From Synergistaceae bacterium (GTDB lineage: Bacteria; Synergistota; Synergistia; Synergistales; Synergistaceae): 50,491 nt of DNA. Position numbers and translations under genes: made by a program. Shown one piece after another: positions 1 to 34,611 of the stretch; position 1 is the stretch's first letter; each line of letters starts with the position of its first letter. The stretch lies in NCBI GenBank assembly GCA_030523725.1, contig JAUNHV010000010.1:1-50491 (forward strand). The letters run 5' to 3'. The notes beneath the pieces were generated by a model, which did no database searches, was not told the DNA's origin, and saw nothing but the letters and a program-made list of their open reading frames with translations.

Positions 1-3000
1 ACGTCAGTGGTGACGCCCGCCCGAGCGGATGAACCCCTCAAGGCTGGTCTGATAAGGATAGACCAGATATTGCAGATGGGAGATCCTGCAAAAAAAGGCA
101 TAGGCGGTGGGGCGAGTAAACGCTATGGAGCTGCCGCAGACATGGCTAAGACGATTTACTTTGGCAAACAGAATGGTAGTGGACTTCTATGGCGAGTGCT
201 ATCGACGAATGAAACTACCACGGCAGGAGCAGGAACCGGAGTTCTGTTATTGTCAGACAACTTGCTAGCATATTCAAAATTTAATACCATATATACTAAT
301 CTATGGTATAAGTCCACAGTTCGCGGACTTCTACAAGAAATTTATACCAAAGCACATACTTCTAGTCCTGAGCCTAGTAGTGGAGTAACATTTGACGGAA
401 GAGAAAAAGCACAAATAGCGGAAACGCAATTAACAGATGTTGAGACAGGTGGTAAACCAGATTATCTGTTTCTATTGAGCAATAAAGAAGTGGCTGGAAA
501 AACTGACAAATCCAAAAGATATGGTTTCACAGATGACCTCAGTAGAAGAGCAATCGCTGCTCGTGCATATCGCACTAGCTCTTGGTGGTTGCGCTCGCCT
601 GGCTCTTATCGTACCCGTGCGTTCGCTGTCGACTTTGACGGCGGAGTCGGTGAGGACAGAGTGTACTCCTACAGTTTTGCCGTTCGCCCGGCTTTCAATC
701 TGAATCCAGAATCGGTTTTGTTTTTATCCGCCGCCGTAGGCGGCAAGAGAGCTGAGGCTTGCGTTGGAAAGTTTGGGGTCGATAATACCTATGATGGAAA
801 AGATGGTTGGAAGGTAACCTTGCGCGACGATAATATCAAAACACCTACAGTGGGAGCTGTTGAAGTTGTTAGCGCAAAATGGGATGTCAATGACCTTGCT
901 GCAGTAGCAATAAAAGAAGGAAAAATTATAAATATTTCAGACCAAACTCTCACTGGAAAACTAAAGATTTCCTACAGTGATGCCACTCCGGATGGAAAGA
1001 ATATGTATGTATCTGCATTGCTCAAAGACGGTGATACCTTTGTGAATTATGCTAAGGTGAATGCAATTACATCAAAAAAAGAAATATCAGGCACAAAATT
1101 TGTTGATATAACTAACGTAATGCCCGAGAGCGGAAGCAAGGATTATACCCTATATATTTATGGTGAACAGGAAAACGGAGATAAAAACACGGACTATGCC
1201 TCTTCTTTTAGTGTGCATACTGTTACGATACCTGCGAAACCGGCTGTGGTTAAGGTTTTAAATCATGCTAAATACGGTGCATCAGGCCTTACAGTGAATC
1301 TTTCAAACAACTGTGAGTTGGGCTTTGAAGGTGGCAAATATGACACAAAAATAATAGTTGGAGAAGGTGAGAAGGGTAAAATTACGGCAGATAAGAATGG
1401 TACAACCCTTACTGGTGATGTCACACTCGGTAACAAAGCAGTTCTCACAATGGGAGGCAAATTTACACTTGAAAATAATCTCTTCAAGCTTCAAAGTGAC
1501 CTAGCTCAAGACAAAGCTGGTAAGATTGAAGCAGAAGATCTAACAATTTCAGGTAACTTAAAGATTCAGTTTATGAATGACCCCATTTTTGCTACGGGGA
1601 TTGAAAGTGTTATGGGCAAAAGGATTCCGATACTTACCGTTACTAATGGCATTGATGCATCAAAAATGAATAAAATAATCGGTCTTTCTATACGTGGAAC
1701 TAGGGGAATTTTTACGCCTACATTGGTATTAGGTGGAGACAAAACTATATACCTGACAGGTTTTACTTTCGGATTTGACCGCAGGTATCAGTTGGTTAGG
1801 GAATCTGCTTGGCAATCAGGTTCGCCAATTCCTTATGGCAGCGTTGTGGAAAAGGATACGGATGGAAAGCTTTACACTTATAAGGTGAAGACTGGAGTTG
1901 GTCCTTGGGGACGTGTCGGGCGTGAGCTGGATAAGGGCGAAGGTGTTACACCAGAGACAAAGAGGTTTGTTTGGCACACAGCGGATCCAAGCGCGGAAAA
2001 GGAAGCAGACAAGAGAGACCACCTGAAGGAAGTGACAGATACTGCAGCAGATGCCGACATCGTTGTTACCTACAATGCGGCAAAGAAAACGGATCAACAT
2101 AAAGAAAGCTTTGTGGATGCTTTGGATGAGAATAAGCCCTTTACCGCTTTTGTGGGAGCGAAGAGTAACACAGGTGGGCGTGGCGGTGCAGTCTACCTTA
2201 ATAAAGTTAAATACGAGGAAGTCAAAGCAGATTTCGTACGTAACTGTGCAGTAATAAATGACCAAGACGTTATGTATGGAGGAGGAGCGATTTTTAACAA
2301 TGAAGGACAAATAAACGCGATTATAGGGGATTTCATAGGCAACTACGCAGACGCAATAGACGCAATATTTGAAAATACTATAACGAATGGGGGGGCGATT
2401 GATAACGGACCAAATTCATCAATTGGAGCTATCACGGGAGATTTCATAGGCAACTATGCTACTAGTGGATACTTGGCGAGTGGAGGAGCTATTTATAACC
2501 ATAATGCGATGGATATCTTAGAAGGCGACTTTATAGGCAACTACACATCAGTAACGAGCAATGCCTCCGGTTCAGCCTACGGTGGGGCAATTTATAACTC
2601 TGGAAGGCTAGGCAGTATCACGGGGAACTTTATAGGCAACTACGCAAAAAATACAGGAAATAGTGGTGAAGCCACAGGAGGAGCGATTAATAACGTTAGG
2701 ATACTAGAGAGTATCACAGGGAACTTTATAGGTAACTACGCAAAAAATTCAGGAAATGGTGGTTCCGCCTTAGGGGGAGCGATTTATAATAATGAGGGCA
2801 CAACGAGTATTGTTGCTGGTGCACAGGATATTCTCTTTAGCGGTAACTATGTGTCTGCAACAAATGGAAAAGCGCTAGGTGGTGCAATCTACAACTCTGG
2901 CACTGGCGATAACGGGATATATTTGCGTGCTGCGGAAGGCAAGTCCATCACCTTTGAGGGTAGAGACGGAGACCCAATAGTGGATAGCGTCCATAATGAA

Positions 3001-6000
3001 GGAAATCTTTCCATAAACGAAGCAGATGGCGAAAAAACCTACACTGGTACGGTCAACTTTGCCAGGATAACAGATGCAGCCACACCAAAAGGCACCATGA
3101 CCATCAATGGCGGAATTGTTAATATTGCTGGAGACGTTACACAGAATAAAATAACAATAGCCGATGGTGCAATGCTGAATCTGCCAGGCACAGGTAAAAT
3201 TGTAAGAACAGCTATAGAAAACAGCGGCGTTCTCAAGGGCAATTTGAATCAGAGCAATAATTTAATCGTTAAGGACAGCGGTGTGTGGCACCCTGTCTTT
3301 ACGGAACACGCGTCAAGCAACACCGTAAATGCCACCTTGTCAAACGGCGGCACGATAGACATTGCATATGACACCTTGACTAAAGACGCAAAAGGCAAAT
3401 TTACTCCTACATATAATAAGAAGACACAAATGGACGCCGCAACAGTGTCAAGCCTTACGATAAACGGCGGAGTCTTGAAAATACAGAGTGCCTTGGCAAA
3501 ATTGGATGCAGCAGCCAGTGAAGTTAGCAAGGCGGACAGTCTTAGAGTGACCGACTTGACACTTAATGGCAAGCTAAAAATTCAGGTTATGTATGACCCC
3601 TCCTTTGCTACGGCTACTACGGCTACAGGTGATATTATCGGCAAACAAATAGCAGTGCTAACTGCCACTAATGTTACTGGTGACTTGTCAAGTGCGGTAG
3701 CAGTCCTTGCCACGACGTATGATGGGAAGAGATTCTGCCCAACGCTTGCTTTTGATGAGCAAAACCAAAACATTTATTTAACCGGCTTTACATTTAAGGA
3801 ACTTTCACATAAATATATGCTAGAGAAGGGGGCTAGTTGGCCTACAGGTGTCACTGCTCCCTATGGCAGTGTTGTGAAAAATGACACGGACGGGAAATCT
3901 TACCTCTATAAGGTCAGGACGTATAAAGACGCTGCCGGATATACTGCTTGGGGACATTGGACAACAGATAAGGGTGGCGAAAACAAGGGCGAAAAATATT
4001 ACGTTTGGCACACGGGAAATGGAACAGATGCAGATCCAAACAGATTAAGTGAAAAATTGGAAGATGGCACGGACGTAACAGACAAAAATGCAGACATCGT
4101 TGTGTATTATGATAAGAGCAGTCTTGCCGATAGACGCAAAGAAGCATATAACAATGAGACCGCTTTTGTAGGTATAGCGACTACTACCCAGTCCCTTGGA
4201 GGTGCACTTAAAAATACTGCAATAATAGATTCAATGAATGCAGATTTTATAGGCAACTATGTTATAGGCAACTATGTATCGTTAATATCAGATCAGGTAC
4301 TAGGTGGTGCGATTTATAACGAATATGATAGTAAAATAGATACCTTAACAGGCGACTTTATAGGCAACTACGCATCAGGATCAAGCTATGCCTACGGTGG
4401 TGCAATTTATATATCACCATTCTCAGGCATAATGAGCACCTTAACAGGTGACTTTATAGGCAACTACGCATCGTCGGAACTTGAAGTAGTCGGTGGTGCG
4501 ATTTTTAACGGTGATTATGTCGAGATAGGGAGCATCAAAGGAGATTTTATAGGCAACTACGTCTATAATAACAAACTAGCACCAGAGGAAGTGATCTATA
4601 AAGCATTAGGTCAGGGTGGTGCGATTAATAACAATGGAACAATAACTAACTTAACAGGCGACTTTATAGGCAACTACGCCTATAGCAATATCATAGTAGC
4701 ATCATGTTTGGAGGAAATGTCCGGGGGAGAAGGAGTAATGTGTCGAGGTGGTGCGATTAATAACGGTGGAACAATAATTAACTTAACAGGCGACTTTATA
4801 GGCAATTATGCATCATCATCAGGATCATCCTCTGCACAAGGTGGTGCGATTTATAACACGGGAACTGTTACATTCCTTGCTGAAGATAAAGATATCCTCT
4901 TCAGTGGTAACTATGTTAGTAGTGGAGACTCAACAAAGGCGCTAGGTGGTGCAATTTATAATGGTAATGAGATGTATTTGCGTGCTGCGGAAGGCAAGTC
5001 TATCACCTTTGAGGGTAGAGACGGAGACCCAATAGTTGATAGTGTACACAATGAAGGAAATTTTTCCATAAACGCACCAGATGGTGAAAAAACCTACACT
5101 GGTACGGTCAACTTTGCCACGGTAACTGGTGCAAATGGTAAAATATATATCAATGGTGGAACGGTTAACCTGCATGGTGCAGTTACGCAGCAAGAAATTG
5201 AAAATAATGCTTTCTTGAACTTTGAGAAAGGTTCAACTTTAGCAAGCAACATAACAATGAAAGAAGGAAGCAAAGGGGTAACAAACTTCAATACAGATTT
5301 TACAGTTGGAGAAAATCAAAAAATTACCCAAGACACGATAAACATAGGAGATGCCGGAAAGTCAGCAACCGTAACAACCAACATAGATAACCTCAACGCT
5401 AGTAGCATAAAAGTGGGGAGTGCGGGTGTGCTAAATCTTACAAGTGGCATGATTGGCAAAGCAATAGCCAACAGTGGTACAGTAGCAGCAAAAAGCGGAG
5501 CAGTAGTTAATAGCACAATTACAAACACACCTGCAACTGGCAAGGTAAAGCTCGAGAAAGATTCGTCATTTGGAGCAAGTGGTAAGGTTACAGGTGGAGA
5601 ACTTGTATTCGAAGAGGGAACTGAATTTAAACCGGCCAACATAGAGAATATAAAAAATCTAACTTCAAATGGTGCAAAATTAAACTTTGCAGCAAAAATA
5701 GTAGATGAAGATGGAGGCAAGGCAATTTTTGAAAATGGCCGCATGCTAAATGTGGTTGGTAAAGCAACAGGACAGCTCAATCTACATGATATCAACCTTA
5801 CGGGAGTAGATCCAGCTGCTTGGCTGCCATATGAAGAGAATAAAAAGCAAATGCAGTATCTAAGCGCCAGTGTGATTTCTGCTACTGGCACAGATATGAC
5901 AATAGCAAATTCATTAACAGCTGTGCTTGGTAACACTGGTACATCCTTTACCTTCAAACAAGCAGTAGATGGAACAGGAAAGAAAATTATTGGTTGGATG

Positions 6001-9000
6001 GATGTAATAGCAGGTAATTCATACACCTTGTCGGAGGTAATTGCAGGCGATACGTGGGAAAAAGATGGTAAAGATTATGATGGCAAAACTCATAAAGCAG
6101 GAGAGCTCATTAACGCTACAGATTCTGCCTATGCACGTGGTGTAAATGTCTACACGTTGCAAGATAGTGGTAACAATACCTACATTGCGTCTCGTGGCTT
6201 AGGTCAACTGAAATGTGCAGAGGATACAGCTTCTGCATCTCGTACCATGATAATAAAAAGCGGTGCTAATGGTAAAGGCACAGTTAAGCAGATGAAATTC
6301 TATGGGACAGGTGCTACCCCAACTCGCAGTGATGATAGAGGAGGTTTGATTATTGGCGATACGTCAAAACCAACTCAGACACAGGAAGTTGAGGTTCAGA
6401 ATGTAGCAGAGATAGCCAAATGGAAGGATCATAAAGCCTTCACAGTTAATTCCAATGGCGAGCTAAGCTTTAGCGGAGAAGATGTTAATCTCACACTCTT
6501 GGACGGAATAGTTAATAACGATGGTGGAACGGTTACATTTAATCAGAATACAATTTTGAAATTTGCAGATGACGATGTAAGCAAAGCTGGTAAACTTTCA
6601 GGAGCAGGAAGTTATATTAACAAGAGAACAATGACAATTGCTGATATGGCAAAACTTGACGTAAGTGAGCTTACAAACAAAGGTATAGTGAACCTTGAAG
6701 ATAATGGCACACTTGGTGTAAAGATAGCTGGAGGCACCTTTAACATAAAAGAAAATGTAACGTCACAGGCAGACAAAATTGCGGGTGACACCAACACAAT
6801 AGCAGCATCCAAGACCCTTACCATAACAAGCGGTACACTTGCCAGAGCTGTAAGTGGTGACGGAACAGTAAAGTTCACTGGTGGAGATATTGCAGCGGAT
6901 GTTACAAGCAAAGTGCTTGAAATTGCAGGACACGTTACGGCAAAGGCAGACAATATTAAGGGAACAACTAATAAGATAACAAGTGGAACATTAAAGCTTA
7001 CTAGTGGAATCGTACTAAATGGACAGGTAACAGGTAATGGAACACTTGAATTTGCAACGGATATTAGGACAAACGTAGCCAATGTTGCAGCCGATACAAA
7101 CATGGTAGACAGCGGAGTAACCCTTACACTTACAGGAACAGACACAGCAACCGGCACGCTTAATAAAGTAATAAGCGGAGAGGGAAACCTTGTAGTAGAT
7201 GGAACAGTAAGCTCAGGTGTTGCAAACTTTGCGAATTCTGGTGCACTTTCTGTTAGGAGTGGAACACTTGAGTTGACGAGCGGCACACTTACCAAAGCGA
7301 TAGACAATGCTGGCACAGTGAAACTTGCAGGAGCAAATCTTGGAGGAGCTTATGTAACAAAAGGCACGCTTGAATTTGCGCAAAGCATTTCTACAAACGC
7401 TTCATATGTTGCAGCAGCAACAAACAGGGTAGACAGTGGGGTAACACTTACACTCACAGGAACAGACACAGCAACCGGCACGCTTAGTAAGGTAATAAAT
7501 GGAGATGGAAACCTTGTAGTAGATGGAACGGTAAGCTCAGATGTTGCAAACCTTGCGAATTCTGGTGCACTTTCTGTTAGGAGTGGAACACTTGAGCTAA
7601 CAAGCGGCACACTCACCAGAGCGATAGACAATGCTGGCACAGTGAAGCTTGCAGGAGCGAATCTTGATGGAGCCTACGTAACAAATGGAACGCTTGAATT
7701 TGCAAAAGACTTAGCAATCAACGCAAACTACGTAGTAGCAACAACGAATATAGTTGATAATGGTGTAACGCTTACGTTGAATGATGGAACTCTCTCAAAA
7801 GCCGTTGCAAATAGTGGCACAGTGAAGCTTGCGGGAGCAAACCTTGGTGGAGCCTACATAACAAAAGGCACGCTAGAATTTGCAAAAGATTTGGCAATTA
7901 ATGCAAACTACGTAGCAGCAACAACGAATATAGTTGATAATGGTGTAACGCTTACCCTGAACGATGGAACTCTCTCAAAAGCCATAACAAATAGTGGAGT
8001 CGTGAAGCTTGCGGGAGCAAACCTTGGTGGAGCCTACGTAACAAAAGGCACGCTAGAATTTGCAAAAGATTTGGCAATTAATGCAAACTACGTAGTAGCA
8101 ACAACGAATATAGTTGATAATGGTGTAACGCTTACCCTGAACGATGGAACTCTCTCAAAAGCCATGACAAATAGTGGAGTAGTGAAGCTTAATGGAGCAA
8201 CGCTAGGCGAAGCACATGTAACAAGTGGCACGCTAGAATTTGCAAAAGATTTGGCAATTAATGCAAACTACGTAGTAGCAACAACGAATATAGTTGATAA
8301 TGGTGTAACGCTTACCCTGAACGATGGAACTCTCTCAAAAGCCATGACAAATAGTGGAGTAGTGAAGCTTGCAGGAGCGGCGCTAGGCGAAGCACATGTA
8401 ACAAGTGGCACGCTAGAATTTGCAAAAGATTTGACAATCAATGCTAATTATGTGGCAGCAACAACGAATATAGTTGATAATGGTGTAACGCTTACCCTGA
8501 ACGATGGAACTCTCTCAAAAGCCATGACAAATAGTGGAGTAGTGAAGCTTGCAGGAGCGGCGCTAGGCGAAGCACATGTAACAAGTGGCACGCTAGAATT
8601 TGCAAAAGATTTGACAATCAATGCTAATTATGTGGCAGCAACAACGAACATAGTTGATAATGGTGTAACACTTACGTTGAATGATGGAACGCTCTCAAAA
8701 GCCATAACCAACAATGGCATAGTTAAACTTGCCGGAGCAAATCTTGGAGGAGCGTACGTAACAAATGGTATGCTCGAATTTGTGTCAAATCTTGTGACAA
8801 ACGCTTCATATGTTGCAGCTGTGACCAACTTGGTTGACAGCGGAGTAACGCTTACACTCAATGAAGGTACACTTACCAAAGCTGTAATGGGCGACGGGAC
8901 AGTGAAATTCACGGGAGGAGAGCTTGCAGCAGATGTTACAAGCTCTCAGCTTGAATTTGCAGGTGATATAACAGCAAATGCGGATAAAATTCAAGGAATA

Positions 9001-11925
9001 ATAAGCAACAAGGTTACAAGCGGAACTCTTGAACTTATTTCCGGTACACTAACTACAGCCTTAGCAAACAGTAGTAAGGTGACGATGCAAAACGGAGTAA
9101 AGCTAAATAGCACAGTTACAAATGAAACAGCGACAGCAAGTACAAAACTTGCGAGTGGTGCGTCATTTGGGGTAAACGGTAAGGTTACAGGTGGCGAGCT
9201 TGTATTCGAAGAGGGAACTGAATTTAAACCGGCCAACATAGAGAATATAAAAAATCTAACTTCAAATGGTGCAAAATTAAACTTTGCAGCAAAAATAGTA
9301 GATGAAGATGGAGGCAAGGCAATTTTTGAAAATGGCCGCATGCTAAATGTGGTTGGTAAAGCAACAGGACAGCTCAATCTACATGATATCAACCTTACGG
9401 GAGTAGATCCAGCTGCTTGGCTGCCATATGAAGAGAATAAAAAGCAAATGCAGTATCTAAGCGCCAGTGTGATTTCTGCTACTGGCACAGATATGACAAT
9501 AGCAAATTCATTAACAGCTGTGCTTGGTAACACTGGTACATCCTTTACCTTCAAACAAGCAGTAGATGGAACAGGAAAGAAAATTATTGGTTGGATGGAT
9601 GTAATAGCAGGTAATTCATACACCTTGTCGGAGGTAATTGCAGGCGATACGTGGGAAAAAGATGGTAAAGATTATGATGGCAAAACTCATAAAGCAGGAG
9701 AGCTCATTAACGCTACAGATTCTGCCTATGCACGTGGTGTAAATGTCTACACGTTGCAAGATAGTGGTAACAATACCTACATTGCGTCTCGTGGCTTAGG
9801 TCAACTGAAATGTGCGGAGGATACAGCATCTGCATCTCGTTCCATGATAATAAAAAGTGGTACAAACGATGATGGTACAATCAAGCAAATGAAATTCTAT
9901 GGGACAGGTGCAGCTGTTACTAGCAATGAAGACAGAGGAGGGCTGATTATTGGTGATACTTCTAAACCGCAACAAACACAAAATGTTGAGGTTCAGAATA
10001 TTGCAGAGATAGCCAAATGGAAGGATCATAAGGCCTTCACAGTTAATTCCAATGGAGAGCTAAGTTTTAACGGAGAAGATGTTAAGCTCACACTCTTGGA
10101 CGGAATAGTTAATAACGATGGTGGAACGGTTACATTTAATCAGAATACAATTTTGAAATTTGCAGATGAAGATACAAAGAAAGCAGGTACATTGTCAGGC
10201 AAAGGCAGCTACATAAACAATGCATTAATGACAGTTACAGATGTAGCCAAACTTGCAATGACGGGGCAAAAGGGACTTGAAAATATAGGTACGGTGATTT
10301 TGACGGGAGGAACACTTGCAAAGGGCGTAACGGTAACGGGGACAGGTTTAACGCTAATAGATGGAGTAGTAAAATCCGATACCAAGATAGCCAACATGAT
10401 AACGATAAATCCAGATAAATCACTTGAGATTTCAGCAGATAATGTTGGAGGAGAAGTAACAAACAACGAAGGAACACTTATCTTGAATGGTGGCACCTTA
10501 TCCCAGCAGGTGAATACTGCACTAGAGGGACAGATTGGTACGATAGATCTCCAGGCAGCAACAGAAATTGCAGCTAAAGTAAAAAATCAGAACATAAAAG
10601 CTACGAAAGGCTATTCTAAAGTTTCAGTTGAAAGCTATATAGCTAACAATGATTTAACCTTTAACGGTGGTGGTTTTGACTTTAGAGATGACAAGGTGTC
10701 AAATTACGTGGTCAAAAATATTAACCTTACTGATAATGGTAATTTGAAGCTTGATGTAGACCTTGCAAATAAATTGATGGATACCCTTAATGTTGCCGAT
10801 GGAGGAGGCGTTACCGGGACAGGAAAACTTCATGTCACTGCCCTTACACTTTTATCAGACGCAAAACAGAACAAAACAAATATTGCCTTCTCAGAGACAG
10901 ACGCCTTGAAGGGACATGTCGTGTCAGACGTTACACATGTAGCATCTGACATGTGGAAATACCTCGTTGCCTATGATAAAGAGACTGGTGAATTTGCCTT
11001 CACAAAGAGTGGCAGAAGTGAACCAGACAAGCCAGAGGTTAGCGAAACAGTAATGTCTATTTCTGATACCGCTCAGGCACTAAATGTGTCATGGTTGAAT
11101 AATATTAACAACCTACAAAAACGCCTTGGTGACCTCCGTGGAGGAGAAGCAAGCAACACAGGTTGGGCACGCTTCCAGAGGAGCAATGATGATGTGAATA
11201 CTGGCAGAAAGGCCAACGTATCTGGTAACCTATATCAGCTTGGTTATGACATTGCCTTAAAGAGTGATGCAGCCTCTCGCGGTTACTTCGGTCTCTCCCT
11301 TGAAAGATTTGACGGAAGCCAGTCATATAAGATTGGTGGTGGCGATGTAAAATCCACATCACTTAGCGCATACTACACAAAGATTTATGACAGTGGTCAC
11401 TACTTTGACTTCATCTTCCGTTATGGTAGATATGAAAGCGACACAACAAGCTACGACGCAGGACTTTCCACAAAACTCGACTACGGTATGAACGGAGTAA
11501 CCTTATCCGGTGAATATGGATATAGAGCAAATATTGGTAAGAATGGATTCTACTTCGAGCCACAGGCAGAAGTTATCTATGGTTATTTAGCTGGAGCAAA
11601 GAAGACAAGTAGCAGAGGCATCTTGGCAGACATAGATAGCACAAACCACTTTGTGACAAGACTTGGTGTTGCCTTGGGTAAGAAGGTTAAAAACTTTAAT
11701 TACTACTTAAGAGGCAGCTACTATCATGACTTTGCTGGTTCAACAAACATCTTGTATGGAGATGCATCATACAAACAAGACAGTGCGAGAAACTGGTGGG
11801 AACTTTCCCTCGGTGGAGGCTGGAACATGACAGACGCAAGTTACTTCTATGCAGAACTCACCAAACACTTCAAGGATGTAAGTAACTCGATAAACTTTAA
11901 TTTAGGTTTCCGCTTTACACTGTAA
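1..11925 (+). CDS. Giant Pmp-like autotransporter adhesin, 5' end outside window
   Basis: Type V secreted surface protein: the passenger would be exported through a C-terminal outer-membrane barrel. The frame is open to base 1, and the first codons read like the end of a signal peptide (TPARA then DEP, an A-x-A cleavage site), so the real start lies upstream; the GTG at 7 is probably not it. Numbering from that GTG, residues about 40-240 resemble DUF6273 (SWWLRSPG near 190, then FAVRPAFNLN). Residues about 490-1730 hold two Pmp-like modules rich in GGAIYN and FIGN. Residues about 1860-3400 are repeat-built, with predicted beta-helix character. From about residue 3715 (WARFQRS) to the end lies an autotransporter barrel of alternating aromatic strands, ending FRFTL, not with the usual final aromatic residue. 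Adhesion or immune exposure is inferred. The export class is firm; the ligand is unknown. Confidence 0.9.
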   Translation, partial: TSVVTPARADEPLKAGLIRIDQILQMGDPAKKGIGGGASKRYGAAADMAKTIYFGKQNGSGLLWRVLSTNETTTAGAGTGVLLLSDNLLAYSKFNTIYTNLWYKSTVRGLLQEIYTKAHTSSPEPSSGVTFDGREKAQIAETQLTDVETGGKPDYLFLLSNKEVAGKTDKSKRYGFTDDLSRRAIAARAYRTSSWWLRSPGSYRTRAFAVDFDGGVGEDRVYSYSFAVRPAFNLNPESVLFLSAAVGGKRAEACVGKFGVDNTYDGKDGWKVTLRDDNIKTPTVGAVEVVSAKWDVNDLAAVAIKEGKIINISDQTLTGKLKISYSDATPDGKNMYVSALLKDGDTFVNYAKVNAITSKKEISGTKFVDITNVMPESGSKDYTLYIYGEQENGDKNTDYASSFSVHTVTIPAKPAVVKVLNHAKYGASGLTVNLSNNCELGFEGGKYDTKIIVGEGEKGKITADKNGTTLTGDVTLGNKAVLTMGGKFTLENNLFKLQSDLAQDKAGKIEAEDLTISGNLKIQFMNDPIFATGIESVMGKRIPILTVTNGIDASKMNKIIGLSIRGTRGIFTPTLVLGGDKTIYLTGFTFGFDRRYQLVRESAWQSGSPIPYGSVVEKDTDGKLYTYKVKTGVGPWGRVGRELDKGEGVTPETKRFVWHTADPSAEKEADKRDHLKEVTDTAADADIVVTYNAAKKTDQHKESFVDALDENKPFTAFVGAKSNTGGRGGAVYLNKVKYEEVKADFVRNCAVINDQDVMYGGGAIFNNEGQINAIIGDFIGNYADAIDAIFENTITNGGAIDNGPNSSIGAITGDFIGNYATSGYLASGGAIYNHNAMDILEGDFIGNYTSVTSNASGSAYGGAIYNSGRLGSITGNFIGNYAKNTGNSGEATGGAINNVRILESITGNFIGNYAKNSGNGGSALGGAIYNNEGTTSIVAGAQDILFSGNYVSATNGKALGGAIYNSGTGDNGIYLRAAEGKSITFEGRDGDPIVDSVHNEGNLSINEADGEKTYTGTVNFARITDAATPKGTMTINGGIVNIAGDVTQNKITIADGAMLNLPGTGKIVRTAIENSGVLKGNLNQSNNLIVKDSGVWHPVFTEHASSNTVNATLSNGGTIDIAYDTLTKDAKGKFTPTYNKKTQMDAATVSSLTINGGVLKIQSALAKLDAAASEVSKADSLRVTDLTLNGKLKIQVMYDPSFATATTATGDIIGKQIAVLTATNVTGDLSSAVAVLATTYDGKRFCPTLAFDEQNQNIYLTGFTFKELSHKYMLEKGASWPTGVTAPYGSVVKNDTDGKSYLYKVRTYKDAAGYTAWGHWTTDKGGENKGEKYYVWHTGNGTDADPNRLSEKLEDGTDVTDKNADIVVYYDKSSLADRRKEAYNNETAFVGIATTTQSLGGALKNTAIIDSMNADFIGNYVIGNYVSLISDQVLGGAIYNEYDSKIDTLTGDFIGNYASGSSYAYGGAIYISPFSGIMSTLTGDFIGNYASSELEVVGGAIFNGDYVEIGSIKGDFIGNYVYNNKLAPEEVIYKALGQGGAINNNGTITNLTGDFIGNYAYSNIIVASCLEEMSGGEGVMCRGGAINNGGTIINLTGDFIGNYASSSGSSSAQGGAIYNTGTVTFLAEDKDILFSGNYVSSGDSTKALGGAIYNGNEMYLRAAEGKSITFEGRDGDPIVDSVHNEGNFSINAPDGEKTYTGTVNFATVTGANGKIYINGGTVNLHGAVTQQEIENNAFLNFEKGSTLASNITMKEGSKGVTNFNTDFTVGENQKITQDTINIGDAGKSATVTTNIDNLNASSIKVGSAGVLNLTSGMIGKAIANSGTVAAKSGAVVNSTITNTPATGKVKLEKDSSFGASGKVTGGELVFEEGTEFKPANIENIKNLTSNGAKLNFAAKIVDEDGGKAIFENGRMLNVVGKATGQLNLHDINLTGVDPAAWLPYEENKKQMQYLSASVISATGTDMTIANSLTAVLGNTGTSFTFKQAVDGTGKKIIGWMDVIAGNSYTLSEVIAGDTWEKDGKDYDGKTHKAGELINATDSAYARGVNVYTLQDSGNNTYIASRGLGQLKCAEDTASASRTMIIKSGANGKGTVKQMKFYGTGATPTRSDDRGGLIIGDTSKPTQTQEVEVQNVAEIAKWKDHKAFTVNSNGELSFSGEDVNLTLLDGIVNNDGGTVTFNQNTILKFADDDVSKAGKLSGAGSYINKRTMTIADMAKLDVSELTNKGIVNLEDNGTLGVKIAGGTFNIKENVTSQADKIAGDTNTIAASKTLTITSGTLARAVSGDGTVKFTGGDIAADVTSKVLEIAGHVTAKADNIKGTTNKITSGTLKLTSGIVLNGQVTGNGTLEFATDIRTNVANVAADTNMVDSGVTLTLTGTDTATGTLNKVISGEGNLVVDGTVSSGVANFANSGALSVRSGTLELTSGTLTKAIDNAGTVKLAGANLGGAYVTKGTLEFAQSISTNASYVAAATNRVDSGVTLTLTGTDTATGTLSKVINGDGNLVVDGTVSSDVANLANSGALSVRSGTLELTSGTLTRAIDNAGTVKLAGANLDGAYVTNGTLEFAKDLAINANYVVATTNIVDNGVTLTLNDGTLSKAVANSGTVKLAGANLGGAYITKGTLEFAKDLAINANYVAATTNIVDNGVTLTLNDGTLSKAITNSGVVKLAGANLGGAYVTKGTLEFAKDLAINANYVVATTNIVDNGVTLTLNDGTLSKAMTNSGVVKLNGATLGEAHVTSGTLEFAKDLAINANYVVATTNIVDNGVTLTLNDGTLSKAMTNSGVVKLAGAALGEAHVTSGTLEFAKDLTINANYVAATTNIVDNGVTLTLNDGTLSKAMTNSGVVKLAGAALGEAHVTSGTLEFAKDLTINANYVAATTNIVDNGVTLTLNDGTLSKAITNNGIVKLAGANLGGAYVTNGMLEFVSNLVTNASYVAAVTNLVDSGVTLTLNEGTLTKAVMGDGTVKFTGGELAADVTSSQLEFAGDITANADKIQGIISNKVTSGTLELISGTLTTALANSSKVTMQNGVKLNSTVTNETATASTKLASGASFGVNGKVTGGELVFEEGTEFKPANIENIKNLTSNGAKLNFAAKIVDEDGGKAIFENGRMLNVVGKATGQLNLHDINLTGVDPAAWLPYEENKKQMQYLSASVISATGTDMTIANSLTAVLGNTGTSFTFKQAVDGTGKKIIGWMDVIAGNSYTLSEVIAGDTWEKDGKDYDGKTHKAGELINATDSAYARGVNVYTLQDSGNNTYIASRGLGQLKCAEDTASASRSMIIKSGTNDDGTIKQMKFYGTGAAVTSNEDRGGLIIGDTSKPQQTQNVEVQNIAEIAKWKDHKAFTVNSNGELSFNGEDVKLTLLDGIVNNDGGTVTFNQNTILKFADEDTKKAGTLSGKGSYINNALMTVTDVAKLAMTGQKGLENIGTVILTGGTLAKGVTVTGTGLTLIDGVVKSDTKIANMITINPDKSLEISADNVGGEVTNNEGTLILNGGTLSQQVNTALEGQIGTIDLQAATEIAAKVKNQNIKATKGYSKVSVESYIANNDLTFNGGGFDFRDDKVSNYVVKNINLTDNGNLKLDVDLANKLMDTLNVADGGGVTGTGKLHVTALTLLSDAKQNKTNIAFSETDALKGHVVSDVTHVASDMWKYLVAYDKETGEFAFTKSGRSEPDKPEVSETVMSISDTAQALNVSWLNNINNLQKRLGDLRGGEASNTGWARFQRSNDDVNTGRKANVSGNLYQLGYDIALKSDAASRGYFGLSLERFDGSQSYKIGGGDVKSTSLSAYYTKIYDSGHYFDFIFRYGRYESDTTSYDAGLSTKLDYGMNGVTLSGEYGYRANIGKNGFYFEPQAEVIYGYLAGAKKTSSRGILADIDSTNHFVTRLGVALGKKVKNFNYYLRGSYYHDFAGSTNILYGDASYKQDSARNWWELSLGGGWNMTDASYFYAELTKHFKDVSNSINFNLGFRFTL
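1480..3155 (+). repeat. Pmp-like passenger module, copy 1
   Basis: In-frame module inside the autotransporter. It opens with a segment containing GNLKIQFMNDP, passes a linker with PYGSVVEKDTDGK and FVWHT, then has about eight GGA[IV] motifs alternating with five [GN]FIGNY motifs and one FSGNY, and closes with AEGKSITFEGRDGDP. GGAI plus FxxN tetrapeptides define the Pmp repeat of chlamydial polymorphic membrane proteins. A second copy follows at 3470-5190. Module boundaries are approximate. Confidence 0.75.
3470..5190 (+). repeat. Pmp-like passenger module, copy 2
   Basis: Second copy of the module at 1480-3155, in the same order: GKLKIQVMYDP, PYGSVVKNDTDGK, YVWHT, eight GGA[IL] motifs alternating with six FIGNY motifs and one FSGNY, then AEGKSITFEGRDGDP. 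The GGAI/FxxN part has diverged in repeat number and spacing, while the closing segment (about 4978-5120) is nearly identical to 2930-3070. This suggests duplication followed by local gene conversion or strong constraint. Confidence 0.75.
5602..6218 (+). repeat. 617-bp perfect direct repeat, copy 1
   Basis: Every base I compared matches 9199-9815, at a constant offset of 3597 bases. Similarity continues at lower identity on both sides (about 5572-6624 against 9169-10221) with no length change. The offset is 1199 codons, so recombination between the copies would keep the autotransporter frame. Confidence 0.93.
7039..7686 (+). repeat. Two 324-bp tandem units in autotransporter
   Basis: Two in-frame units of 108 codons (7039-7362 and 7363-7686), each starting GTLEFA. 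They are the 60-residue unit of the following array plus a 48-residue insertion containing GTDTATGTL and SGALSVRSGTLELTSGTL. The insertion was therefore either present before, or lost during, expansion of the shorter units. Confidence 0.85.
7687..8766 (+). repeat. Six 180-bp tandem units in autotransporter
   Basis: Six in-frame units of exactly 180 bases (60 residues), starting at 7687, 7867, 8047, 8227, 8407 and 8587. Each carries GTLEFAKDL, TTNIVDNGVTLTLNDGTL and VKLAGA, with slight changes in the first and last. A degenerate seventh runs to about 8880. Two adjacent stretches, 8277-8468 and 8457-8648, are identical, which points to recent unequal exchange or slippage. Confidence 0.92.
9199..9815 (+). 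repeat. 617-bp perfect direct repeat, copy 2
   Basis: Second copy of the repeat at 5602-6218. The first mismatch downstream is at 9816 (against 6219), and the nearest upstream mismatches are at 9198 and 9195. The flanks diverge at mostly silent or conservative sites, so the perfect core looks like a recent conversion tract inside an older duplication of about 1 kb. Confidence 0.93.
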
Positions 11926-32710: not shown

Positions 32711-33064
32711 ATGAGACACCATGTGACAATGAGGCGCCTCGGGCGTTGCAGCTCACACAGGCGTGCAATGCTTGGTAATATGGCAGCCAGTCTCTTCATA
32801 GATGGTAGCATCGAGACAACTGTTACAAGAGCTAAAGAACTTCGCAGAGTTGCAGAAAAGCTTATCACAAAGGCAAAGGGTGCTAGCCTCACAGATAGAA
32901 GGCTCGTTATCGCACGTATGCCCCACAAAGCAGCTGTAATAAAGTTATTTGATGAGATTGGTCCAAAATACAAGGAGCGTAATGGCGGTTATACCCGCAT
33001 AGTGAAAATAGGAAATCGTGTTGGAGATGCATCTCCAATGGCGATCATCAGCCTTGTAGACTAA
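32711..33064 (+). CDS. rplQ: 50S ribosomal protein L17
   Basis: Exit-face 50S protein, the usual last gene of the alpha operon. 117 residues. MRHHVTMRRLGRCSSHRRAM at the start is diagnostic; the typical KLGRPSSHR is varied to RLGRCSSHR. GGAGGAGGATTAACC at the end of rpoA serves as its ribosome site. A 15-bp inverted repeat follows. Confidence 0.97.
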   Translation: MRHHVTMRRLGRCSSHRRAMLGNMAASLFIDGSIETTVTRAKELRRVAEKLITKAKGASLTDRRLVIARMPHKAAVIKLFDEIGPKYKERNGGYTRIVKIGNRVGDASPMAIISLVD

Positions 33065-33070
33065 CAAATT

Positions 33071-33117
33071 AAAGCCAGCAGAATAGGTGCATTATGTGCA
33101 TTTATTCTGCTGGCTTT
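33071..33117 (+). terminator. Inverted repeat after rplQ, likely end of ribosomal cluster
   Basis: AAAGCCAGCAGAATA (33071-33085) pairs exactly with TATTCTGCTGGCTTT (33103-33117), a 15-bp stem with a loop that has its own short TGCA pairs. Only a short T-run ends the stem, so termination may be partial, with some read-through into the ECF ATPase genes. Confidence 0.7.
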
Positions 33118-33164
33118 GTATATGATAGAATTTTTTAGTTTTGGGACAAGGGGAGAGATAATAT

Positions 33165-33899
33165 ATGGAGTTAATGCCAAAAATTTCTGTGCAGAATGTT
33201 TCATTTAATTATTCTGAAGATATAAAAATATTGAATGAAATTTCATTGAACATTTTTGCTGGTGATAGGGTGTGCTTGCTTGGAACGAATGCTAGTGGGA
33301 AATCTACTCTATTAAAAATTATGGCAGGCTTATTGTCTCCAACAAACGGGCAGGTTTTATTTGAGGGCTATCCTGTCAATAAGGTGCGAAAAGGTGAAAT
33401 TTGCTACGTGTTTCAAGATGCAGAATATCAAATTGTGGCGAGTACTGTTGAAGCAGATGTTGCCTTTGGTGCTGAAAATCTTGCCCTGCCTCAAGAAGAA
33501 ATTGAAAAAAGAGTAACGGATTCACTAAGTGTAGTGAACCTTTTACACAAGAGATATGCAGATGTTGAATGTCTTAGCGGTGGACAAAAAGCTTGTCTTG
33601 TACTTGCAGATGCATTGGTTATGCAGCCGAGTGTGCTTTTGCTTGATAATGTGACAGAGCACCTTGACAAATATGGGCAGGAAATGGTGGAACAACTGTT
33701 GCAAAAATTTAATGCTAAAGGAGTAACCATTGTTTCTGCGGAACATTCACTTGGTAAAATTAGAAATTGCGATAGAGTTTTTATCTTAAAAAATGGCAGC
33801 ATTGTAGCAGAAAAAATGCCAGATGAAATTTTTGAAATGACTGATCTTGAACTAGCCAAGCTTGGTTTTCTACAGATAGAAAATTTCTTTACACAATAA
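33165..33899 (+). CDS. ecfA1: ECF transporter ATPase with degenerate Walker B
   Basis: Cytosolic ATPase of an energy-coupling-factor module (vitamin or metal uptake). 244 residues. Walker A GTNASGKS at 40-47, Q-loop FQDAEYQ, signature LSGGQ at 137-141, H-loop H194. The Walker B reads LLLDNV: catalytic Glu is replaced by Asn162 after Asp161. The family usually has DEPT here, so its own ATP site may hydrolyse poorly. It begins 100 bases after rplQ, the usual position of ecfA1, and its partner follows after 13 bases. Assignment as A1 rests on order. Confidence 0.85.
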   Translation: MELMPKISVQNVSFNYSEDIKILNEISLNIFAGDRVCLLGTNASGKSTLLKIMAGLLSPTNGQVLFEGYPVNKVRKGEICYVFQDAEYQIVASTVEADVAFGAENLALPQEEIEKRVTDSLSVVNLLHKRYADVECLSGGQKACLVLADALVMQPSVLLLDNVTEHLDKYGQEMVEQLLQKFNAKGVTIVSAEHSLGKIRNCDRVFILKNGSIVAEKMPDEIFEMTDLELAKLGFLQIENFFTQ

Positions 33900-33912
33900 T
33901 TGGTGAAGTGAA

Positions 33913-34611
33913 ATGTCATTAGAGATTAAAAATCTTACTGTAATATATAACGAAGGAATGGAAGACGAAGTAGTGGCTCTAAAGGGAATAAGTGTCGTTT
34001 TTTCTCCCGGAGAGATTACTGCTGTTGTAGGAGAAATGGGGAGCGGTAAGTCTACCTTGGCTGATCATCTTAACGGTCTTTTGACACCGACAAAGGGAAG
34101 TGTATTGCTTGATGGACAAGATATGGCACAGGCGAGAAAAAAAGAAATAACTCGTCGTGTTGGTTACATTATGCAGCAATCGGAGAAGCAGATCTTTTGC
34201 CAAACTGTGAAGGAAGAAATCGCATTTGCTCCCAAAAATTTTGGTTTTTCAGAAGATAAAACGGAGCGTATTATATCAGAAGTTACAAGTGAACTAGGTC
34301 TGGAAGAAATTTTGCAAAGTGATCCCTTGAAATTATCTTTTGGACAAAGGAGGATTGTGACTATTGCTTCCGTTTTGGCGCAAGAACCCGATTTCCTTGT
34401 GTTGGATGAACCAACGGCAGGACTTGATGATTTTGCCACTAAAGCTGTCTTAAAACTTGTCTGGCATCTGAAAGAAAAAAATATTGGAATTGTCTTTATT
34501 ACCCATAATTTTGATTATGCTTTTGCGATTGCAGATAAGTTTTTGGTGTTAAAAAATGGGTTAGCTGTATTTTATGGAACAAAAGAAGAAGCGAAAAAAT
34601 ATTTGTATTAA
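33913..34611 (+). CDS. ecfA2: ECF transporter ATPase, second subunit
   Basis: Partner ATPase, 232 residues. Walker A GEMGSGKST at 40-48, Q-loop MQQSEKQIF, signature LSFGQ at 141-145 (second Gly replaced by Phe), intact Walker B LVLDEPTAGLD with E166, and switch histidine in FITHNFD. In a heterodimer its Walker B would face the partner's intact LSGGQ, while the partner's damaged Walker B faces this LSFGQ. No EcfT or substrate-binding S protein follows. Confidence 0.87.
   Translation: MSLEIKNLTVIYNEGMEDEVVALKGISVVFSPGEITAVVGEMGSGKSTLADHLNGLLTPTKGSVLLDGQDMAQARKKEITRRVGYIMQQSEKQIFCQTVKEEIAFAPKNFGFSEDKTERIISEVTSELGLEEILQSDPLKLSFGQRRIVTIASVLAQEPDFLVLDEPTAGLDDFATKAVLKLVWHLKEKNIGIVFITHNFDYAFAIADKFLVLKNGLAVFYGTKEEAKKYLY

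Follow-up and report, generated by a model that had tools for sequence, protein, structure and literature searches.

The ecfA1-ecfA2 pair behind rplQ probably encodes the ATPase of the only ECF import module in this genome, and this ATPase would work asymmetrically: one of its sites would hydrolyse ATP and the other would hold it, in convergence with other ECF modules. The Walker B Glu of EcfA1 and the signature of its partner EcfA2 were both altered in one composite ATP site, and the other site was canonical at its core, which is the arrangement that defines a degenerate composite site. The window, meaning the whole stretch of DNA analysed, comprised 50,491 nt from a Synergistaceae bacterium (GCA_030523725.1, contig JAUNHV010000010.1, positions 1-50,491, forward strand). 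Its relevant features are collected in Table 1.

Table 1. Positions of the ECF ATPase genes, their motifs and the upstream elements in the window
Feature	Position	Strand	Remarks
rplQ	32711..33064	+	Conserved neighbour upstream; fixes orthology of the EcfA pair
Hairpin between rplQ and ecfA1	33070..33118	.	23-bp perfect, terminator-like, -34.8 kcal/mol, z -8.6
ecfA1, first ECF ATPase	33165..33899	+	244 aa, without C-terminal domain; orthology by synteny and tree
EcfA1 Walker A, GTNASGKS	33282..33305	+	Ala in place of Gly43; Lys46 and Ser47 retained
EcfA1 signature LSGGQ, residues 137-141	33573..33587	+	Canonical; faces ATP of EcfA2
EcfA1 Asn162, codon AAT, catalytic Glu position	33648..33650	+	Glu in 40/40 orthologues
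ecfA2, second ECF ATPase	33913..34611	+	232 aa, without C-terminal domain
EcfA2 signature LSFGQ, residues 141-145 (Phe143)	34333..34347	+	Faces ATP of EcfA1; S-G-G in 36/36 orthologues
EcfA2 Glu166, codon GAA, catalytic Glu intact	34408..34410	+	

The coordinates, frames and residue numbers of both ATPases in the initial annotation were all correct on re-reading. The ribosomal cluster ends in the order rplQ-ecfA1-ecfA2. The best curated NCBIfam models were TIGR04520 and TIGR04521, both below their curated cut-off (206 vs 315 bits; 234 vs 330). The AlphaFold models of EcfA1 and EcfA2 reached a mean pLDDT of 86 and 93, and their top structural matches were solved ECF/CbiO ATPases. These below-cut-off family models and fold matches placed the pair in the sequence family of the group II ECF ATPases, and synteny and the tree gave it the group II orthology and position. 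In the tree, EcfA1 of the window was basal to the rplQ-linked EcfA1 clade, and EcfA2 fell inside the EcfA2 clade. Both proteins were stand-alone NBDs, and the exporter-type fusion to transmembrane domains was absent. Their frames were open, with codon-position GC like that of neighbouring working genes. A search of a wider genome contig collection for close EcfA1 relatives returned one distant Clostridia ABC match only. Judged by sequence, the module belongs to a known family, of which it is a divergent representative with a putatively one-sided ATPase. At the start of the window, the open frame at 7-11925 codes for 3972 aa; it is very large and autotransporter-like, contains long repeats internally and has a barrel-like C-terminus.

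The motif states were compared with syntenic orthologues of the same family and order, 40 for EcfA1 and 36 for EcfA2. Asn162 in place of the catalytic Glu and LSFGQ in place of LSGGQ, as first annotated, were confirmed, and both were unique among these rplQ-linked orthologues. The nearest relatives had canonical motifs, the genus itself being represented by a single genome in the comparison. Group II modules are marked by the catalytic Glu and LSGGQ or LSGGE in both ATPases, from which the pair departs at both places. The AAT codon of Asn162 differs by two base changes from every Glu codon, and codon 143 of EcfA2 (TTT, 34339-34341) by two or three from every Gly codon. Because each substitution needs at least two base changes, a single-base read error explains neither of them. 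With two independent codons of this kind and clean frames, sequencing error was ruled out.

Apart from Asn162 and Phe143, the core residues were kept in both subunits. They included Walker A (Lys46 and Ser47 in both), the Q-loop (Gln84 in EcfA1 and Gln88 in EcfA2), the Walker B Asp (Asp161 before Asn162 and Asp165 before Glu166), the D-loop Asp (Asp168 and Asp172) and the switch His (His194 and His198). The claim that the second site is intact was thus upheld for its core, but not for its second shell, in which Q143A and R144C follow LSGGQ in EcfA1, and F87M and P90S lie in the Q-loop of EcfA2. Near-invariant columns were changed at 14 of 51 positions in EcfA1 (27%) and 11 of 56 in EcfA2 (20%), the highest values of the set.

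In the closed ECF module of L. delbrueckii, each ATP is engaged by the signature of the partner subunit (PMC10368641), so the proposal that the two faults face each other in a head-to-tail dimer is sound. Once a Glu has been lost and a signature changed, the two share a composite site by chance with a probability of about one half; therefore, same-site pairing proves little alone, and chance placement is not rejectable from this pair.

The two changes had been described as damage, but LSFGQ is not clearly damage, since Ser142 and Gly144 are retained. The retention of these two residues, together with His194 and Gln84 of EcfA1, is consistent with a reading in which LSFGQ is tolerated and Asn162 lowers catalysis without abolishing it, so that both sites hydrolyse ATP with no real division of labour. 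Variant third signature positions (LSVGE, LSKGQ, LSLGD) also occur in other ECF pairs whose catalytic residues are all canonical. However, Asn has no base function, a Glu to Gln change abolishes measurable ATPase activity in the characterised ECF module (PMC10368641), and Pdr5 has a natural Asn for Glu at its degenerate site (PMC7756269). Hydrolysis at both sites is improbable on these grounds.

A division of labour between the sites was considered by analogy with degenerate-site transporters, in which turnover takes place at one site and the altered one serves as an ATP-holding hub (PMC7756269). Site 1 (Asn162/LSFGQ) should hold ATP, and site 2 (Glu166/LSGGQ) should hydrolyse it. ATP bound on EcfA2 (Glu166, His198) would be hydrolysed against LSGGQ of EcfA1 in every cycle, and ATP bound on EcfA1 would stay sandwiched against LSFGQ of EcfA2 and be hydrolysed very slowly. 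We infer that EcfA1 and EcfA2 dimerise, are active, and use the slow site as a hinge that keeps them paired. Each time the dimer closes and reopens, the movement would still reach the separately encoded EcfT via its two Arg-motif helices, and in the L. delbrueckii module closure is relayed to EcfT through X-Arg-X helices (PMC10368641). Movement of EcfT would then drive release and reset of the S-component, most likely the PF07456 protein.

In L. delbrueckii, either single Glu-to-Gln mutant showed severe growth defects, and the ATPase activity of the mutant modules was not above background (PMC10368641). This counts against a one-sided working module, since an unadapted module does not tolerate such a loss. 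In degenerate-site transporters, restoring the canonical motifs can reduce function (PMC7756269).

To find other Asn-bearing ATPases, 188 genomes of the phylum were screened with a DNA pattern for LSGGQ-19 aa-Asp-Asn. Besides the window, four ABC ATPases with Asn were recovered, and the remaining matches read as unrelated sequence. The four (L148-L151, from G014, G029, G026 and G007, genera g8 and g15) each belonged to a dedicated ECF operon encoding a TrpP-like S-component, EcfA1, EcfA2 and a CbiQ-like EcfT. In their EcfA1, Glu was changed to Asn, the switch His to Gln and the Q-loop Gln to Glu; their EcfA2 kept Glu and His. According to the initial annotation, relatives combining Asn with a canonical LSGGQ partner would have counted against its reading. 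Such a combination was sought in the 188 genomes, and the partners of all four carried MSRGE, MTRGE or MGRGE. Five further genera (L155, L157, L158, L160, L161) had the same kind of module, in which EcfA1 keeps Glu with His changed to Gln (VEQK) and EcfA2 carries L/MSRGE. These pairs are a putative intermediate state.

Ten dedicated ECF pairs were also read on plasmids of Archaea, Actinomycetota, Thermomicrobiota and Enterococcus. The signature of the second NBD was not S-G-G in nine of them, and in two the first NBD was also without Glu and His. In these two, on plasmids of Thermomicrobium roseum (L174) and Haladaptatus (L180), Glu was changed to Gln, His to Arg or Gln and the Q-loop Gln to Glu in the first NBD, and the second signature was deviant. 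The Thermomicrobium first NBD had also lost the Walker A Lys.

Among the 19 dedicated ECF pairs checked, a small and non-random sample, the second-NBD signature was altered in 18. Catalytic loss occurred in the first NBD only; the first signature and the second Glu were kept in all 19. Where EcfA1 had lost Glu or His, the second signature was deviant in every pair (12/12), and where EcfA1 was intact it was deviant in 7/44 (Fisher p 9e-8, a value that ignores shared descent, the 12 pairs representing only about four independent clades). The frequent alteration of the second signature in dedicated ECF pairs, with occasional loss of the first-NBD catalytic residues, is the more general result. 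The asymmetry had been described as not the usual state for ECF modules; this was borne out for the rplQ-linked modules of the lineage, but many dedicated ECF pairs are asymmetric.

Replacement of the window pair by an Asn-bearing paralogue was ruled out by synteny and the tree. Since EcfA1 and EcfA2 of the window fall apart from the Asn-bearing paralogues in the tree, the Asn of the window arose separately, with the same polarity, and this recurrence in other ECF pairs favours a working one-sided module. With confidence that is evenly balanced, we suggest that ECF modules repeatedly and convergently turn the site of the first NBD and second signature into a non-hydrolytic, ATP-holding one, and that the window holds an rplQ-linked, shared-type module that has switched in this way and shed its C-terminal domains.

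The surroundings of the pair were also rearranged. The two relatives read whole (L117, L120) showed the operon order rplQ-ecfA1-ecfA2-ecfT-truA with a rplQ-ecfA1 spacer of only 3-6 bp, and ecfT lay just past ecfA2 in most other relatives. In the window, the spacer contains the terminator-like hairpin, of which no second copy was found elsewhere within the window, and ecfA2 is followed by xseB-ispA-dxs. Loss of ecfT was ruled out, because ecfT-truA was found relocated to a different contig (G000:C10). Directly upstream of the relocated genes were five tandem dicarboxylate/amino-acid symporter-like paralogues (L116, 352-6615). The genome had one EcfT above the family cut-off, with both X-Arg-X coupling motifs kept (SRG, ESRGY), as in group II EcfT but in a non-adjacent position. 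One S-component family, PF07456, was recognised on the same contig as ecfT, and a search of the genome for PF12822, BioY, PF07155 and ThiW found none of them.

The C-terminal domain of ECF ATPases was missing from both EcfA1 and EcfA2, unlike in their relatives. This domain is a dimer contact in ECF ATPases; without it, a long-lived ATP hinge would be of greater use. An HMM search downstream of ecfA2 in all frames gave no trace of a remnant, which argues against a frameshifted domain there; the corresponding HMM for EcfA1 was weak (five sequences). The loss of both domains, together with the separation from ecfT, could point to an EcfA pair that was uncoupled from EcfT and recruited as soluble ATPases for a different task. 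However, the genome retains one intact EcfT with both Arg motifs as well as an S-component, and it has no second EcfA pair to serve them, which makes such recruitment very improbable.

The distances of EcfA1, EcfA2 and EcfT were 1.5-1.9 times those among relatives, compared with 1.04 for TruA and 0.96 for RplQ, and each of the three had diverged further than any of its counterparts in the compared set. The fast evolution, the lost C-terminal domains and the moved ecfT, none of which was in the initial annotation, leave room for relaxed decay, the main rival of a one-sided working module. Under decay, the module is being lost in a reduced, fast-evolving genome, with Asn162, LSFGQ, the truncations and the ecfT split as successive losses and transport weak or gone. 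The divergence of the pair and EcfT, the lost domains and the changed second shell weaken the case for a one-sided module to this extent, and decay also agrees with the absence of most S-component families searched for and with the hairpin, which severs the EcfA pair from the ribosomal operon.

Nevertheless, RpoA of the same genome is also fast (ratio 1.63), no component contains a frameshift or stop, GC by codon position is typical of a working gene, and both core losses match what conserved ECF pairs show. In genus g6 of the same family, rplQ is not followed by ecfA1, and EcfT and PF07456 are both missing. This is a precedent for decay, but since g6 is without the whole set, a full ECF set can be discarded when unneeded, yet it was kept in the genome studied here. 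Decay is thus the less likely reading, though a serious alternative, and the one-sided working module is favoured because the frames are open, the other core residues are kept, and the EcfT Arg motifs and PF07456 are present.

Compared with known systems, the module shares with the group II rplQ-linked shared ECF transporters (L. delbrueckii ECF-FolT2/CbrT) the rplQ-EcfA1-EcfA2 order, the fold, a single EcfT that carries the Arg motifs, and the encoding of the S-component at another locus. It differs from them in Asn162, LSFGQ, the missing C-terminal domains and the detached ecfT, whereas both catalytic Glu residues are required in L. delbrueckii. Published ECF data show that both Glu residues are needed. 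A natural one-Glu module and the recurring pattern provide material for testing ECF transport on one hydrolysis per cycle, which bears on the number of ATP molecules hydrolysed per ECF transport cycle and on the joint action of the two sites. The TrpP-like dedicated modules (L148-L151) resemble the window in an EcfA1 with LSGGQ and Asn for Glu, and an EcfA2 whose signature is altered and whose Glu and His are kept. However, they form a different clade, their EcfA1 is also without the switch His and the Q-loop Gln, and they have their own S-A-A-T operon with full-length ATPases.

No description of degenerate ECF sites, or of the pattern across dedicated ECF pairs, was found in the open-access papers searched. 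The one-sided design is known chiefly from work on drug exporters. In the exporters TAP, TM287/288, MsRv1273c/72c and Pdr5, the Walker B change likewise faces the altered signature of the partner, and Pdr5 has Asn for Glu as in EcfA1 of the window (PMC7756269). Unlike the window proteins, these heterodimeric exporters have NBDs fused to transmembrane domains and belong to a different transporter class. The earlier comparison with heterodimeric exporters was too narrow, since asymmetric sites occur in dedicated ECF pairs and in the importers RbsA/NupO, in which a degenerate ATP site is likewise paired with a working one (PMC11466899). RbsA/NupO differ from the window in their fused NBDs, classical transmembrane domains, binding protein and lost Walker A Lys. 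Together with these importers, the recurring one-sided ECF pairs suggest that the logic of the degenerate site is not an exporter speciality.
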